From Candidatus Rokuibacteriota bacterium (GTDB taxonomy: Bacteria; Methylomirabilota; Methylomirabilia; Rokubacteriales; CSP1-6): a stretch of DNA of 37,770 bases. A model generated the notes under the pieces. That model saw only the letters and a program-made list of their open reading frames with translations. It searched no databases and had not been told where the DNA came from. Numbering within the stretch: the stretch's first letter is position 1; each line of letters begins with the position of its first letter. A program made the translations under genes and the position numbers. The stretch spans positions 1-37,770 of the forward strand of contig QHSZ01000117.1 in assembly GCA_003220595.1 (NCBI GenBank), in the 5' to 3' direction. Of the stretch, positions 6,857 through 33,065 are shown one piece after another.

Positions 6857-7713
6857 GCGGCGAGTTCTGGATCACCCAGGCCTTCAACGGCCTCTCGTAC
6901 GGCGCGCTCCTGTTCCTGCTGGCCAGCGGGCTCTCGCTCATCTTCGGCGTCATGCGCATCGTGAACATGGCCCACGGATCCTACTTCATGCTCGGCGGCT
7001 ATGTGGGCCTCTCGGTCGTCTGGCGGACCGGGAGCTTCGCGGCCGCGCTCCTCGCGGGCGCCCTCGCGCTGGCGCTCGTGGGCGTCGGGATGGAGCGGTT
7101 CTTCCTGCGGCGCCTGCCCGGCCAGACCCTCGGCCAGGCGCTGATGACGATCGGGTTCGCGCTCATCTTCCAGGATCTCGCGCTGCTGATCTGGGGCGGC
7201 GATCCCTACTCGATCCCGGTGCCCGCGACGCTCCAGGGCGTCCTGACCGCGGGTGCGCTCCGCTTCCCCGTGTACCGCATCTTCATCGTCGTCGTCGCGG
7301 TCGTCATCGGCGCCGCGCTCTGGCTCATCCTGGACCGGACGCGCGTCGGCGCCATGCTCCGCGCGGCGGTCGACGACCGCGAGATGGCCCAGGGCGTCGG
7401 GATCCACGTGCCCCGCATCTCGTTCGCGGTCTTCGCGCTCGGCGCGGCGCTCGCGGCGCTGGGCGGCGTGATCGGCGCAGGCTTCCTCGGCGTCTACCCC
7501 GGCGCGGACTTCGAGGTGCTCCCCTACGCGTTCGTCGTCGTGATCGTCGGCGGGCTCGGGAGCCTGCCCGGCGCCATGGTCGGCAGCCTGCTGGTCGGGC
7601 TCCTCGACAACTTCGGCAAGGCGCTCTTCCCCGAGCTCTCCTACTTCACGCTGTTCGCGCCGATGGCGCTCATCCTCGCCCTCAAACCCACGGGGCTCTT
7701 CGGACGCGCGTGA
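6853..7713 (+). CDS. livH: branched-chain amino acid-type ABC importer permease LivH
   Basis: This 286-residue inner-membrane permease has about eight hydrophobic helices and typical LivH sequence: NGLSYGALLFLLASGLSLIF at the start, RIVNMAHGSYFMLGGY, and GGLGSLPGAMVGSLLVGLLDN near the C-terminus. LivH pairs with LivM to form the channel of HAAT-family importers. These take up branched-chain amino acids but often also aromatic acids, amides or urea. Start GTG 6853 overlaps the amidohydrolase stop and its stop overlaps the LivM start, both by 4 nt. Being trapped between a decarboxylase and monooxygenase-type genes, it likely imports a catabolic substrate rather than leucine; that is inference. 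Confidence 0.93.
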   Translation: MSGEFWITQAFNGLSYGALLFLLASGLSLIFGVMRIVNMAHGSYFMLGGYVGLSVVWRTGSFAAALLAGALALALVGVGMERFFLRRLPGQTLGQALMTIGFALIFQDLALLIWGGDPYSIPVPATLQGVLTAGALRFPVYRIFIVVVAVVIGAALWLILDRTRVGAMLRAAVDDREMAQGVGIHVPRISFAVFALGAALAALGGVIGAGFLGVYPGADFEVLPYAFVVVIVGGLGSLPGAMVGSLLVGLLDNFGKALFPELSYFTLFAPMALILALKPTGLFGRA

Positions 7714-27193: not shown

Positions 27194-28249
27194 CTACGGC
27201 TTCAGCATCACCTTGATCGCGCGGTCTTCCTTCCGGTCGAAGATCGCGTAGCCGCGCGGCGCCTCCTTGAGGGCCAGCGTGTGGCTGACGATCCGCGCGG
27301 GCGCCAGCTTGCCGAGCCGCACGAGCGGCAGGAGCGTGCCCATGTAGTTGCGCGCGTTGCAGATCCCCATCTTCAGCGAGAGGTCCTTGAAGAAGGCCTC
27401 GCGCGCGGGAAACCCCATGCTCGGCTCGACGTAGACGCCGACGGAGGACACGGTGCCGCCCGGGCGCACGGCCTGGATCGCCTGGGTGAACGGCGTCTCG
27501 TGGCCAACGCACTCGAGGACCACGTCGGGCCCGCGCCCGCCCGTCGCCGCCCGGAGCTGGGCGGCGGGATCGCCGCGGTCGAGGCTGACCGGCTCGGCGC
27601 CGAACTCCTCGGCGAGCCGCAGGCGGTAGTCCACGCGGTCCACCGCGAAGACGCGCGCCGGGCCGAAGAGCTGGGCCGACTGCATGGCGAGCAAGCCAAC
27701 GGGCCCGGCGCCGAAGACGGCGACGGTGTCGCCCGGGCGGATCCCGCCGTTCTCGGCGCAGCAGTAGCCCGTCGAAAGGATGTCGCCGAGGAAGAGCGCG
27801 TCCTCGTCGCGCATGTCGGCCGGGACCTTGTCACACAGGTGGTCGGCGAACGGCACCCGGATGCGCTCGGCCTGACCGCCGCCCCACACGTGGCCGAAGC
27901 GCCCGCCGAAGACCGCGCGGCCCGTCGTCGCGCACTGGGAGGGCAGCCGGCGCTGACACCACTCGCACCGGCCGCACGAGACCGAGAACGGCACGATCAC
28001 GCGGTCGCCGCGCGCGAGGCCCTGGACGCCCGGCCCCGCCTCCTCCACCGTGCCCATGAACTCGTGGCCCATGATGGCGCCGGTCTGGACGAGCGCCCCA
28101 CCGCCGCGCCCATGGTACTGGTGGAGGTCGGAGCCGCAGACGGCGCTCGTCGTGATCCGCAGGACGACGTCGGTGGGATCGACGAGCCGGGGCTCGGGGA
28201 CGTCCTGCGCCCGCACGTCGCCCACGCCGTGGAAGGTGATCGCGTTCAT
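27194..28249 (-). CDS. zinc-dependent alcohol dehydrogenase (MDR family)
   Basis: This 351-residue medium-chain dehydrogenase shows the catalytic zinc set C38 (AVCGSDLHQYHG) and H62-E63 (GHEFMG). The structural zinc cysteines are C92, C95, C98 and C106 (SCGRCEWCQRRLPSQC). The NAD-binding loop is VFGAGPVGLLAMQSA. The closest recognisable branch is that of glutathione-independent formaldehyde and sorbitol/threonine dehydrogenase-like enzymes, and the substrate is open. ATG 28249 is preceded by GGAGA and overlaps the ROK gene stop (ATGA). It closes a six-gene - strand operon headed by the probable selenoprotein. Confidence 0.9.
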   Translation of the reverse strand: MNAITFHGVGDVRAQDVPEPRLVDPTDVVLRITTSAVCGSDLHQYHGRGGGALVQTGAIMGHEFMGTVEEAGPGVQGLARGDRVIVPFSVSCGRCEWCQRRLPSQCATTGRAVFGGRFGHVWGGGQAERIRVPFADHLCDKVPADMRDEDALFLGDILSTGYCCAENGGIRPGDTVAVFGAGPVGLLAMQSAQLFGPARVFAVDRVDYRLRLAEEFGAEPVSLDRGDPAAQLRAATGGRGPDVVLECVGHETPFTQAIQAVRPGGTVSSVGVYVEPSMGFPAREAFFKDLSLKMGICNARNYMGTLLPLVRLGKLAPARIVSHTLALKEAPRGYAIFDRKEDRAIKVMLKP

Positions 28250-29238
28250 GGCTGTCTCCTCTCCGCCTGCGCCATCTCGTAGAGCGCGAGCGCGGCGGCG
28301 CCGCGCATGCTGACGCGCTTGTCGCCCGGAACGATCCGGATGCGAGTGAGCGCGAGCGCCTGGTGAAACGCGTACTCGGCCGCCGCCGCGAGGATCCTCG
28401 GCTCGAGGGCCGCCAGCGATTCCGCCACGCCCCCGGTGATCACGACGACCTCGGGGTTGAGCCCGTTGACGACCGTGCCGAGCGCCGCGCCGAGCGCCTG
28501 GCAGGCCTCGTCGACGACCGATGATGCCACGGAATCACCGTGGGCGGCCGCACGGAAGACGAGCGGCGCCGTGATCGCCTGCGGATCGCCGCCCGCGGCG
28601 CGGAGGAGCTCGGCGTCGGCGTGGCCTGCCACGCGGGCGCGCGCGGACTCGGCGATGCCGCGGCCGCTCGCGTAGAGCGCCAGGCACCCGCGGCCGCCGC
28701 ACCAGCACGGCGGCCCGTCGAACTTCACGGGCGTGTGGCCAAGCTCGCCCCCGAACCCCGCCATGCCGCGCACGAGCCGGCCGTCGAGCACGATGCCGGC
28801 GCCAAAGCCAGTGCCGGGCGCCAGCACGACGAGCGAGCGCGCGCCCCGGCCGGCGCCGAAGAGCCACTCGGCGAGCGCGAGCGCGTTCACGTCGTTGTCG
28901 ACGAACGTCGGGAGCCGGAATCGCTCCGAGAGCTCCGCGGCGAGGGCGCGGCCGGCGAGCTCGGGCACGTGGGGCACGGGCTCGCCGACGCGCCCCGCAA
29001 CCGCATCCACGGGGCCGGGCACCCCGACGCCGATCCCGTCGAGGGCACGGCCGAGACGCGAGGCCTCGCCGCGGAGCTCGTCGATCAACGCGCCGATCAC
29101 CTCGACGGCGTGCCCCGGGCCACGGTCACGGGTCGGCACGCGCTGCTCGAGGAGCACCTCGCCGGCGGCGGTCACGGCGCCCGCGGCGATCGTCGTCCCG
29201 CCGACGTCCACGCCGAGGAGCAGCCCTCCCGCCTTCAT
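28246..29238 (-). CDS. ROK-family sugar kinase (glucokinase-like)
   Basis: This 330-residue protein has the ATP-binding start LLGVDVGGTTIAAGAVTAAG, the second phosphate motif LAPGTGFGAGIVLDG, and the ROK zinc signature with H in GELGHTPV followed by CWCGGRGCLALYASG. FVDNDVNALALAEWLFG gives the catalytic aspartate. ROK kinases phosphorylate glucose, N-acetylglucosamine or N-acetylmannosamine; no HTH domain is present, so it is an enzyme rather than a repressor. It starts 11 nt after a ChbG/HpnK-type deacetylase gene, so the pair may handle an amino sugar; that is inference. Confidence 0.9.
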   Translation of the reverse strand: MKAGGLLLGVDVGGTTIAAGAVTAAGEVLLEQRVPTRDRGPGHAVEVIGALIDELRGEASRLGRALDGIGVGVPGPVDAVAGRVGEPVPHVPELAGRALAAELSERFRLPTFVDNDVNALALAEWLFGAGRGARSLVVLAPGTGFGAGIVLDGRLVRGMAGFGGELGHTPVKFDGPPCWCGGRGCLALYASGRGIAESARARVAGHADAELLRAAGGDPQAITAPLVFRAAAHGDSVASSVVDEACQALGAALGTVVNGLNPEVVVITGGVAESLAALEPRILAAAAEYAFHQALALTRIRIVPGDKRVSMRGAAALALYEMAQAERRQP

Positions 29239-29249
29239 GGGCCCGCGGG

Positions 29250-29993
29250 CTAGAGGTCGCCGAAGTGGCAGAGGGTCAGGCCGAGGGCGAGCGCCGCGGC
29301 GCGCGCCGCGGGCGTCCCGAGGCCGACCAGCTCGGTCTCGCGCTGGCGTCCGTAGCGGCTGTACGCGAGGGCGTCGTCGCACCAGCCCGGGTGCGTCATG
29401 AACTCCGAGACGCCCGGCGGCAGCGCGCGCAGGTGGGCGAGCGTCCGGGCGAGGGACCAGTAGGCGCCGGGCCCCGACTCGCCGAAAAAGTGGTCGGGCG
29501 TCCTGAGTCCGGCGCTCCGCGCGCGCGCCCGCGCGGCCGCGTCCTGGCTCCGCACCGGGATGCCGAGCCGCCGCGCCGCCGCGAGGACGACGCCCGCGAC
29601 GGGGGCGTGGAGGCCGACGTGGTGGTGCGAGTCGAGATGCGTCGGCGCCCGCTTCACCAGCCGCTCGAACTTCTCGATCTGCGCCGCGACCTCGCCCTCG
29701 ACGTCCTTCGCCTCGGCGCGGGCCGCCGCGAGCCGCGCGTCGCGCACGAACCGGCCGGAGGCGTCCACGAGCGAGCGCGCGCCCGTGAGCGGCCGGCCGA
29801 GCGTCAGGTTGACGTGGAGCCCGAGGCCGAGCCCCTCGGCGCGCGCCCGGGCGAGCTGCTCTCTGTCGGGATCGGCCGTGACGAGCACGGTCGTGCTCGT
29901 GACGAGGCCGTGGCGCCGCGCAGCGAGGATGCCCGCGCTCACGCCGGGCGTGAGACCGAAGTCGTCGGCGTTGACGATGAGCCGCCGGGTCAC
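29250..29993 (-). CDS. ChbG/HpnK-family (YdjC) deacetylase
   Basis: This 247-residue carbohydrate deacetylase-like protein begins VTRRLIVNADDFGLTPGVS, with the metal aspartates in NADDFG. Further motifs are GLHVNLTLGRPL, THLDSHHHVGLHAP with the metal histidines, and FMTHPGWCDD. ChbG removes an acetyl group from chitooligosaccharides and HpnK acts in hopanoid side-chain assembly. The gene lies in an operon with a ROK kinase rather than hopanoid genes, which favours a sugar role. Its GTG start overlaps the methyltransferase stop (GTGA). Confidence 0.88.
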   Translation of the reverse strand: MTRRLIVNADDFGLTPGVSAGILAARRHGLVTSTTVLVTADPDREQLARARAEGLGLGLHVNLTLGRPLTGARSLVDASGRFVRDARLAAARAEAKDVEGEVAAQIEKFERLVKRAPTHLDSHHHVGLHAPVAGVVLAAARRLGIPVRSQDAAARARARSAGLRTPDHFFGESGPGAYWSLARTLAHLRALPPGVSEFMTHPGWCDDALAYSRYGRQRETELVGLGTPAARAAALALGLTLCHFGDL

Positions 29994-30694
29994 GCGCGAA
30001 GGGTCCCCTGGACGAGGAGCCGCTCGACCGTCGCGGGCAGGCCCGTCGCGGGCAGCGTGGCCTCGGGCTCCACGGAGCGGATGTGCTCGAGCCGCTCGTA
30101 GCCGAGGCGCGGGAACGACTGGGTCTCGGTCGCGACGAGCGCGGGCTCGAGCCCCGCCGCCTCGAGCCGCGCGAACGCGCTCTTCCGGCCGAGGAAGGCG
30201 AAGATCGCGAAGAGGAGCCGGCCGCCGGGCACCAGGTGGGCGGGCGCGCCACGGATCACGCGGTCGAGGATCTCCCAACCGTCCGTCCCGCCGTTGTCGG
30301 CGGCGGCGCGCGCGTCGCGCCGCACGCGGCCAGGCGGCGTCGGCATCTGGGGGGCGTTGGCACAGATCAGGTCGAAGCGCTCGCCGGCGACGGGCGCGTA
30401 GCAGTCGCCGAGGCGCGCGTCCACCGCGACGCCATTCAGCGACGCGTTGGCGCGAATGGCCTCGACCGCCTCGGGGAGGACGTCCGTCGCCACGACGCGG
30501 GCGCCGGCCTTCGCCAGCAACACGGCCGCCAGGCCGAGGCCGCTCCCGATCTCGAGCACGCGCCCGCCGGGCTCCACCGCGAGATGGCGGCAGAAGAAGC
30601 GCGAGCCCGCCTTCGGCGGCTGGACTCCGTCCGGCGCGCGGAACACGGAACCGCGCCAGACGAAGAGGAGCACGCCCTCGTCACTACCGGCCAA
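29990..30694 (-). CDS. class I SAM-dependent methyltransferase (HemK/PrmC-like fold)
   Basis: This 234-residue protein has SAM motif I VLEIGSGLGLAAVLLAKAG, motif II VVATDVLPEAVEA, and DLICANAPQMPTPP where PrmC-type enzymes have NPPY. The N-P-P-Y change to N-A-P-Q means it is probably not a classical release-factor methyltransferase, though the overall layout is close. An upstream MAGSDEGVLLFVWRGSVFRAP region resembles the N-terminal strand of small-substrate N-methyltransferases. TTG 30694 has GGAAGG just upstream and overlaps the preceding gene by 11 nt; GTG 30673 is an alternative. Substrate unknown. Confidence 0.8.
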   Translation of the reverse strand: MAGSDEGVLLFVWRGSVFRAPDGVQPPKAGSRFFCRHLAVEPGGRVLEIGSGLGLAAVLLAKAGARVVATDVLPEAVEAIRANASLNGVAVDARLGDCYAPVAGERFDLICANAPQMPTPPGRVRRDARAAADNGGTDGWEILDRVIRGAPAHLVPGGRLLFAIFAFLGRKSAFARLEAAGLEPALVATETQSFPRLGYERLEHIRSVEPEATLPATGLPATVERLLVQGTLRA

Positions 30695-30995
30695 GGACCT
30701 TCCGGAAGTAGAGGCGCAGCGCCTCCTTCAGCTGGGCCCGCGCCCCGGCCGAGGTCTTCGCGTCCTCGAGCACCTCGATGTCGAGCTGCAGCGGCACGCC
30801 CTCCTTCTTGACCCCGTCGAGCTCGGCGGTGAGCCCGCAGCGCTCGTCGGACTCGGTGAAGACGACCTTGGCCCGCGCGAACGTGCCGTCGTCCTTCGCG
30901 ATCTGCTCGATGGTCTCGACGAGGACGCGCTTGATCGCCTCCGCCTCCCCCGCCGGGACCGTCGAGAACGCCGCCGTCAGGCTAACGTCCGCCAT
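30684..30995 (-). CDS. conserved-looking small protein of unknown function
   Basis: I do not recognise this 103-residue soluble protein. It reads as an alternating alpha/beta domain: strand VSLTAAFSTV, helix AEAIKRVLVETIEQIAK, strands ARAKVVFTESD and LTAELDGV, strand PLQLDIEVLE and a final helix ARAQLKEALRLYFRKVLG. There is no signal peptide or membrane segment. It overlaps the selenoprotein-candidate gene by 14 nt upstream and the methyltransferase by 11 nt downstream, so it is certainly co-translated with them. GC3-rich codon use matches its neighbours. Its fixed place between those two genes makes it worth comparing in other genomes. Confidence 0.7.
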   Translation of the reverse strand: MADVSLTAAFSTVPAGEAEAIKRVLVETIEQIAKDDGTFARAKVVFTESDERCGLTAELDGVKKEGVPLQLDIEVLEDAKTSAGARAQLKEALRLYFRKVLGR

Positions 30996-31236
30996 CGGTC
31001 CACACCGTCAGGATGTCCGCGTGCGTCTTCGCCGCGTTCGCCCGGATCGCGAAGCTGATCGCCTCGCGCACCTCGTCCTCCGTCGCGCCCGATGCCCTGG
31101 CACCTGCCAGGTCGCGCTTCGCTCAGTGGGTGTTGCCCACGGCGAGGTTCGCCGCGAGGTAGCAGAGGTACGCGGTCTTCGGGTCGAGGGCACCCTTCTT
31201 GTACTTCCAGCTCGCGATCACTTTCTCCTCGAGCAT
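30982..31236 (-). CDS. probable selenoprotein: CMD/AhpD-like protein with in-frame TGA
   Basis: This 84-residue frame has TGA as codon 38 (31125-31123). Before it lies LDPKTAYLCYLAANLAVGNT-H, after it AKRDLAGARASGATEDEVRE, a normal carboxymuconolactone decarboxylase/AhpD helix pair. The TGA falls where the second Cys of the AhpD CxxC active site would be (12 residues before the GAT turn). ATG 31236 has AAGGAGG 5 nt upstream. The frame continues unbroken past the TGA for 46 codons and overlaps the next gene by 14 nt. A SECIS-like hairpin follows the TGA. Alternatively it is a pseudogene. CMD-domain selenoproteins have been reported from metagenomes. No sel genes are in this window. Confidence 0.78.
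31096..31111 (-). promoter_or_regulatory. SECIS-like hairpin after the TGA codon
   Basis: On the - strand CCTGGC-AGGT-GCCAGG is a perfect 6-bp stem with an AGGU loop. Loop bases are at +18 to +21 after the TGA, the position of the AGGU in the E. coli fdhF element as I recall that sequence. Four unusual codons for this genome (GCA, GGT, AGG, GCA) are confined to this hairpin, suggesting RNA-level constraint. Confidence 0.7.
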
Positions 31237-31254
31237 CCCTGCCTCCTTGCCGGA

Positions 31255-31346: not shown

Positions 31347-33065
31347 CTAGTGGCCTGCGGCGGCCGCCGGCCGCAGGTGGTCGAGTCCCGCCTCGAGCCC
31401 CTTCGCCGTCACGCGCACGCCGACGGGTTTGGCGAAGCTCAGCGTCGCGTAGGTCTCCTGCTTCGGGACCACCCGGTGTCCGAGCCGTGCGAGGCCGGCG
31501 AGCGCCTTCTCGCCGACGCGCTCGTCCACGAGCAGGTCGGCGCCTTCCGCGTGGAGCCGTGGGGCCTCGATCGCGGCCTGGAGCGGCACGCGACCGTCCA
31601 CGAGCGTCGCGAGCACCTGCGGGATCGCGGAGATGATCCGGCGACCGCCCGGCGCGCCGAGCGTGAGGTAGGGCTTGCCCCTCCTGAAGGCGAGCAGCGG
31701 GACCATGTTCACGAGCGCGCGCTTGCGGGGGCCGATCGAGTTCGGCCGGCCGGGCTCGGGGTCGAACCAGATCATCCCGTTGTTCAGGAGGATGCCCGTC
31801 CCTTGCACGACCACGCGCGCACCAAAGAGCGAGACCGCGGTGTGCGTGAGCGCGACCATGTTGCGCTGGCGGTCGACCACCGAGACGTGCGTCGTGCACT
31901 CGCCCGCGCCGCCGGCGCGCGCCCGCGAGGTGAGGACGCGCCGGGTCGCCGAGCCGGTCTCGTCATGCGCGGCGGCGGGCGCCCGCGCCCCCGCCCGACG
32001 CGGCGCCGGGCGCTGGAGCTCGGCGGCGATGGCCCGCGCGTACGGTTTCGAGGCGAGCTCGGCCCACGGCGCCTTCACGACGGCCGGGTCGCCGAGGAGC
32101 TGGAAGCGGTCGGCGAAGGCCCGGCGCACGGCCTGGGCGCGGAGGTGGAGGCCCTCGGTCGTCTGCCCCCCGACCCGCGCCGGCGCCCACTGCTCGAGGA
32201 TGTTCAGAATCTCGAGGGCCGTGATCCCGCCGGTCGCGCCGGGCGCCAGCGCCAGATCGAGGTCGCGGTAGCGTCCCGTGAGCGGCGCGCTCACGCGCAC
32301 CTCGTACGCGGCGAGGTCCTCCAGGCCGATGAGGCCCTGGTGCGCGGCCATCTCGTCGTGGATCGCCTGCGCGAGCGCGCCGCGGTAGAACGCGTCCGGC
32401 CCCTCACGCGCGATCAGCGCGAGGCTCCGGGCGAGATCCGGGTACGTGACGCGCTCGCCGGGCTCGAGCGACGGCGGCCGGTGGATCGCGCGGCCGTTCC
32501 GGAGGTAGGTGCGCGCGCTCTCGGGGAACGCGCCGAGCTCCTCGATGTAGCGCGCGGTCGTGAGCGCCTGGTACCAGTCCGGCACGAAGCCCTCGCGCGC
32601 GAGCGCGATCGCCGGGGCGAGGACGTCGGCGAGCTCCATGGTGCCGTAGCGCTCGAGCGCCAGCGTGAGCCCGGCGACCGACCCGGGCACCGCGACCGCC
32701 CGGTGGCCGTACTCGTTCGCCGCGCCCTCGACGCGCGGCCAGGGGAAGAGCCCGTCGGAGATGCCGCCGATCAGCCGGAACATCCCCTCGTGGGCGCGCG
32801 TCGGCGCGACGCCGTTGAAGTCCAGCGCGACCGTCTCGCCGCGCTTCTCGAGGTGGACGAGCATCGTGCCCGAGCCTGCGATCGTGGACATGAAGGGCTC
32901 GACCACCGTCATCGCGAACGCGGTCGCGACGGCGGCGTCCACGGCGTTGCCCCCGCGCTCGAGGATCGCCGCGCCCACTGAGGCGCCGAGCGGGTGCTCG
33001 GCCGCGACGAGGCCGCGGGGCGCGAGCGGCGTCTGCTTGGTCACGGTCAGCCGCGACTGGATCAT
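31347..33065 (-). CDS. gamma-glutamyltransferase family protein
   Basis: This 572-residue Ntn-hydrolase precursor is expected to self-cleave before T391 in CTTHVSVVDRQRNMV. The large-subunit start GLVAAEHPLGASVGAAILER and NAVDAAVATAFAMTVVEP, and the small-subunit LGAPGGRRIISAIPQVL, are standard. GGTs transfer or hydrolyse gamma-glutamyl groups, for example from glutathione. Unlike the E. coli enzyme there is no N-terminal signal peptide, so a cytoplasmic role is likely, or the start is misjudged. ATG 33065 lies 31 nt after the lipoprotein stop, probably in the helicase operon. Confidence 0.9.
   Translation of the reverse strand: MIQSRLTVTKQTPLAPRGLVAAEHPLGASVGAAILERGGNAVDAAVATAFAMTVVEPFMSTIAGSGTMLVHLEKRGETVALDFNGVAPTRAHEGMFRLIGGISDGLFPWPRVEGAANEYGHRAVAVPGSVAGLTLALERYGTMELADVLAPAIALAREGFVPDWYQALTTARYIEELGAFPESARTYLRNGRAIHRPPSLEPGERVTYPDLARSLALIAREGPDAFYRGALAQAIHDEMAAHQGLIGLEDLAAYEVRVSAPLTGRYRDLDLALAPGATGGITALEILNILEQWAPARVGGQTTEGLHLRAQAVRRAFADRFQLLGDPAVVKAPWAELASKPYARAIAAELQRPAPRRAGARAPAAAHDETGSATRRVLTSRARAGGAGECTTHVSVVDRQRNMVALTHTAVSLFGARVVVQGTGILLNNGMIWFDPEPGRPNSIGPRKRALVNMVPLLAFRRGKPYLTLGAPGGRRIISAIPQVLATLVDGRVPLQAAIEAPRLHAEGADLLVDERVGEKALAGLARLGHRVVPKQETYATLSFAKPVGVRVTAKGLEAGLDHLRPAAAAGH

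Follow-up and report, generated by a model that had tools for sequence, protein, structure and literature searches.

We find that a short gene in a 37,770-nucleotide stretch of DNA from a Candidatus Rokuibacteriota bacterium (the window) very probably encodes a selenoprotein, with selenocysteine (Sec) as the residue specified by an in-frame TGA at codon 38 (probability roughly 0.95). This reading draws on the conservation of the UGA, the SECIS hairpin that follows it, the Sec machinery of the genome, and a residue-exact alignment of codon 38 to the Sec or Cys of relatives. Judged by its sequence, the novelty of the protein is its NxxU motif, as opposed to the CxxU of catalogued CMD/AhpD-type selenoproteins.

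An in-frame TGA in a CMD-family gene

The gene lies on the minus strand at positions 30982 to 31236; its predicted product is 84 residues long and carries Sec, from codon 38, in the motif N35-T-H-U38. Read from 31236 to 30982, the frame translates as MLEEKVIASWKYKKGALDPKTAYLCYLAANLAVGNTH*AKRDLAGARASGATEDEVREAISFAIRANAAKTHADILTVWTDGGR*, where the asterisks mark the TGA and the terminal stop. It contains a single TGA, codon 38 (31123 to 31125, minus strand), and ends at a TAG, sharing its last 14 bases with the next gene. A ribosome-binding site, AAGGAGG, can be read directly at 31242 to 31248 on the same strand, about 5 bases 5' of the ATG. The earlier note had described the TGA within a CMD-family frame, the strong ribosome site, and the overlapping TAG stop, and all of these hold on reexamination. 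Standard annotation would cut the gene short at the TGA.

The TGA is conserved, and protein-level selection acts on both sides of it

We searched 388 genomes, reading the TGA as Cys, and recovered 40 full-length copies, including the window's own, and 1 partial copy that spans the codon. The other copies are 84 to 94% identical to that of the window, and all 41, from 40 genomes, fall within one Rokubacteria family. Their hosts comprise at least 40 related species from soil and groundwater. Codon 38 is TGA in 41/41 copies, far more often than chance would allow (counts of two TGA codons per copy include the terminal stop), and a codon-by-codon reading of 33 distinct genes gave TGA in 33/33 and Cys in 0/33. 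The earlier note had held that decayed homologues, or a residue other than Cys at codon 38, would speak against Sec; neither sense nor decayed versions occur among the 41 copies, and TAA or TAG is never seen there among copies spanning the codon. We also scanned about 85,000 named species genomes independently; the 30 loci recovered came exclusively from Candidatus Rokubacteria/Rokuibacteriota or Methylomirabilota. No Cys-containing ortholog appeared in these species genomes (the search was pattern based and could miss very divergent forms) or across the phylum, and plasmid records gave no match.

Coding sequence is conserved 3' of the UGA as well as 5' of it. Pairwise differences at codon positions 1/2/3 are 5.0/9.9/34.0% before the TGA and 6.7/5.8/30.9% after it. 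This approximately equal third-position bias indicates that the sequence following the TGA is translated and is under selection at the protein level.

In 8 of 32 orthologs (L027, L029, L032, L035, L037, L042, L043, and L071), TGA serves both as the predicted Sec codon 38 and as the terminal stop. With both uses in one short frame, it is the hairpin that must discriminate between them.

A SECIS hairpin is encoded downstream of the TGA

The hairpin, CCUGGC-AGGU-GCCAGG (31096 to 31111, minus strand), occupies bases 12 to 27 after the TGA and goes beyond what the earlier note had looked for. It fits the published bacterial model, which calls for a loop of 3 to 9 nt, a stem of 4 to 16 bp, a G in the first two loop positions, a spacing of 16 to 37 nt, and an energy of at most -7.5 kcal/mol (PMC13188914). 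Here, the loop is 4 nt (AGGU) with a G within its first two positions, the stem is 6 bp, the spacing from UGA to apical loop is 17 nt, and the energy is -10.1 kcal/mol. Single-sequence folding of the region is unremarkable relative to shuffles (z of about -1, in a GC-rich sequence), and in several orthologs, the 50-nt fold favors another structure.

Codon choice is stronger evidence for the SECIS than folding energy. We compared 33 related genes with a codon background that is approximate, being taken from seven genes of this window. Arg at +9 is AGG in 33/33 genes (background, 0.027), while the invariant Arg residues at +3, +19, and +27 are AGG in 0 of 33. Among the other SECIS codons from +5 to +9, Leu +5 is CTG in 33/33 (background, 0.22), Ala +6 is GCA in 24/33 (0.016), Gly +7 is GGT in 23/33 (0.046), and GCC is used in 33/33 (0.39). 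When NxxU and CxxU relatives are aligned, the hairpin register is identical, and 132/132 stem cells are paired, compared with at most 54% in a control with the partner shifted by 1 to 3 bases. Relative to the CxxU relatives, 2 of 6 stem pairs show double-sided change (CG/UA and GC/CG/UA); since the stem is invariant within the NxxU subfamily, this covariation depends on the alignment with paralogs.

The genome carries a complete Sec machinery

The genome is 4.06 Mb and 98.5% complete, in 380 contigs. It contains a tRNA-Sec with anticodon TCA, which scores above the Rfam cutoff and was confirmed by ARAGORN, as well as SelA (502.8 bits) and SelB (373.3 bits), encoded within 5 kb of each other on one contig, and SelD (333 bits, above its cutoff). 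Thus, selA, selB, selC, and selD, which the earlier note had named as the check on its reading, are each present. SelD is probably a selenoprotein itself, given that its gene (G000:C7:18099-19040, L141) has an in-frame TGA (CAGUASK) followed by a strong hairpin.

These data bear on simpler accounts of the TGA. Were it a true stop, or one with low-level readthrough, the downstream part would arise from readthrough or a restart. TGA is among the usual stops and does terminate the eight orthologs listed above, yet codon 38 never takes the form of the other stops, rare codons are constrained in the shape of a SECIS, the Sec machinery is complete, and codon 38 corresponds residue for residue to the Sec or Cys of relatives. 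On the strength of the conservation, the two-sided protein selection, and the frozen SECIS codons, we reject an ordinary stop as highly improbable. The chance of a sequencing error or a pseudogene is smaller still, and we regard it as negligible: although the assembly is fragmented, the identical TGA recurs in 41 copies from 40 assemblies originating in several independent studies, with purifying selection on either side. The independence of these copies and the selection flanking the codon led us to discard both explanations.

The product has a predicted CMD fold but departs from AhpD

The 84-residue product is predicted to adopt the CMD fold. It matches Pfam CMD (PF02627) at 38.1 bits against a cutoff of 23, and its AF2 model has a pLDDT of 87.8. 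The best Foldseek matches are all CMD/AhpD-family structures, with E-values above 0.1 for a model of this length, and TTHA0727 of Thermus thermophilus (2cwq), 3bey, and 7y4r are among the nearest. In a profile search, U38 aligned with the second Cys of the 7y4r motif CDGC and of the TTHA0727 motif SEAC. The suggestion that the TGA occupies the position of the second active-site Cys is thus supported by alignment, both with CxxC in CMD proteins of solved structure and with the Sec residue of the CxxU paralogs. Sec38 would lie at a helix start, preceded by His37.

The N-T-H-U motif is invariant. Asn35 stands in place of the first (resolving) Cys in every ortholog, so the replacement proposed from the single sequence applies throughout the subfamily. 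Cys25 is likewise invariant here and is V in CxxU paralogs of the same phylum. Where the first Cys is lost, Cys25 is gained; from these sequences, it may or may not be a functional replacement, and helix spacing did not clearly indicate that it faces Sec within one subunit. The AhpD proton relay consists of Glu118, Cys130, His132, Cys133, and His137 (PMC3141380). Its equivalents here are residue 23, which is variable, N35, H37, U38, and D42, which is invariant, so that of the five, His132 and the Cys133 chalcogen alone are preserved.

An AhpD-like CMD identity, as originally assigned, therefore stands in part. The CMD fold and the Pfam match support it, but the CxxC/CxxU pair is absent, 3 of 5 relay positions are missing, and the AhpD core domain model TIGR00778 (cutoff, 27.8) gave no match at an E-value of ≤0.1. 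PcaC (TIGR02425; cutoff, 155.7) also gave no match. The best NCBIfam match by bit score was the GSU3128 family (seleno)protein model NF041047, at 41.3 bits against a cutoff of 110, and no NCBIfam model covers the NxxU subfamily.

Relationship to known CMD selenoproteins

GSU3128, described as a "distant AhpD homolog," resembles our protein in its length of about 84 residues, its CMD fold, and its Sec at the matching position but has a CxxU motif. CxxU CMD paralogs of Methylomirabilota (e.g., L075 to L083 and L085, with GCTSU and similar motifs) share about 40% identity with it, as well as an in-frame TGA at the matching codon and a hairpin in the matching register. These paralogs keep the first Cys and lack both Cys25 and the adjoining P103 operon (see below). 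Three of them score 29.6, 32, and 51.4 bits against TIGR00778 (cutoff, 27.8). The CxxU subfamily is widespread in the phylum; it may also be unnamed, because the three members tested reach 44.6 to 77 bits against the GSU3128 cutoff of 110. A further CMD-like frame, L084 (near position 6894 of G038:C330), has an in-frame TGA and, three codons further on, another (MAGULPUSKNRF), making it a candidate UxxU selenoprotein. A Methylomirabilota MAG described by Deng et al. in 2026 reportedly has 63 predicted selenoproteins.

Other families share the fold but not the motif. CMD domain-containing selenoproteins were reported in the Sargasso Sea survey with the motif CxxU (PMC1088965); these and AhpD-like selenoproteins have the CMD fold in common with the present protein, which differs in being NxxU. 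ArsM_AhpD_UU (NF041537) and MduS (NF045649) have a C-terminal CMD-type domain with Sec, yet they are CxxU proteins fused to methyltransferase domains, and our query scores far below their cutoffs. TTHA0727 likewise lacks the first Cys, having Ser70 in place of Cys130, and has been inferred to lack peroxidase activity (PMC3141380); its second position is Cys rather than Sec. CxxU is the motif of the CMD/AhpD-type entries in a 2026 catalogue (PMC13188914). NxxU is absent from these entries, though it may have been listed earlier in other selenoprotein surveys.

Gene neighborhood and probable repeated gene loss

The selenoprotein gene is followed, on the minus strand, by genes for P103, a 103-residue protein that matched no Pfam or NCBIfam family (30684 to 30995, the 14-base overlap noted above); a HemK2/MTQ2-type methyltransferase (29990 to 30694; TIGR00537, 91.6 bits against a cutoff of 87); a YdjC/ChbG-type carbohydrate deacetylase (29250 to 30005, start approximate); a ROK-family sugar kinase (28246 to 29250, start approximate); and a zinc-dependent alcohol dehydrogenase (27194 to 28249). 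Directly upstream, at a distance of 110 bases and on the same strand, is a gamma-glutamyltransferase gene (31347 to 33065), which many relatives, though not all, also have in the adjoining position. The order selenoprotein-P103-methyltransferase-YdjC-ROK is conserved across the family, often with the alcohol dehydrogenase after it and the gamma-glutamyltransferase before it. The P103 model (pLDDT, 90) orders its strands and helices as in HPF/RaiA, the ribosome hibernation factors, which also make up most of its top Foldseek matches (best E-value, 2.7e-3; TM only 0.4 to 0.5). The location of P103 beside a HemK2/MTQ2-type methyltransferase is suggestive of a translation-linked role.

The six-gene operon of the earlier note is approximately right, in that the genes lie on one strand and overlap or adjoin one another. 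However, gamma-glutamyltransferase also lies upstream, and the neighbor set is independent of the selenoprotein. The genes from P103 onward are kept without the selenoprotein gene throughout genus g8, in the individual genomes G003, G042, and G052, and in three further families of the order, which makes the operon a weak guide to function. Extra DNA of about 4.5 kb in L057 (G016) and about 0.8 kb in L058 (G005) lies between the selenoprotein gene and P103.

If the selenoprotein gene was ancestral in the family, then the operon-protein tree implies that it was lost there on at least four separate occasions. Neither a remnant nor a Cys form was found at the sites of loss. SelA is present in 52/57 family genomes, including most that lack the selenoprotein gene, and across these 57 genomes, we found no link between absence of the gene and absence of Sec machinery. 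Of the five genomes in which SelA gave no match, some are incomplete assemblies; in G031, selB starts at a contig end.

A possible one-selenol mechanism

We propose that SelB with Sec-tRNA would recognize the hairpin beginning 12 bases after the UGA, leading to Sec insertion at codon 38, the position that the second, attacking Cys holds in CxxC. From what is known of CMD proteins and selenoenzymes, we infer that Sec38 is the attacking residue. With Asn35 in place of Cys, the usual intramolecular bond of CxxC or CxxU is impossible, making a one-chalcogen enzyme most likely. The selenolate would attack an oxidized or electrophilic substrate, with peroxide as the default guess, and either an external thiol or Cys25, the invariant Cys specific to the subfamily, would resolve the intermediate. 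We infer this chemistry, its substrate, and its reductant; redox catalysis by a single selenol seems, from sequence, slightly better than an even bet. A fuller proposal, which we offer tentatively and at somewhat less than even odds, is that this Rokubacteria-confined subfamily has dismantled the CMD redox pair, keeping Sec, converting the resolving Cys to Asn, and adding a new invariant Cys25. It would then work through a single selenol, with its resolving thiol either relocated or external, and would have a non-AhpD activity. Under this proposal, Sec is never swapped for Cys, and lineages abandoning the function delete the whole gene.

A different chemistry, in which Sec38 is not a peroxide-type catalyst and its selenolate serves to bind a metal or metalloid or to attack an organic electrophile, strikes us as rather unlikely. 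It would accommodate the invariant N35 and the missing equivalents of Glu118 and His137, and it finds precedent in TTHA0727, with its Ser70 for Cys130 and no inferred peroxidase activity (PMC3141380). Also in its favor are the methyltransferase-fused CMD domains of ArsM_AhpD_UU and MduS, which are weak matches to our protein. Against this, no metal-handling neighbor was seen in an operon of sugar and methyltransferase genes, and single-Sec peroxidases without a CxxC partner exist, namely, GPX-like UxxT and peroxiredoxin TxxU proteins (PMC13188914). A functional partnership between the selenoprotein and the downstream operon products is also doubtful. In almost every genome that carries it, the selenoprotein gene immediately precedes P103, usually with an overlap, but the P103-methyltransferase-YdjC-ROK set persists without it in the g8 clade, the three genomes named above, and the outgroup families, and other DNA separates the two in G016 and G005.

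Taken together, our analysis adds a well-supported selenoprotein subfamily for an uncultured lineage. Sec appears to have been kept after its CxxU partner was lost, and we saw no Sec-to-Cys exchange despite at least four losses of the gene. This combination would permit a direct test of why some proteins need selenium rather than sulfur.
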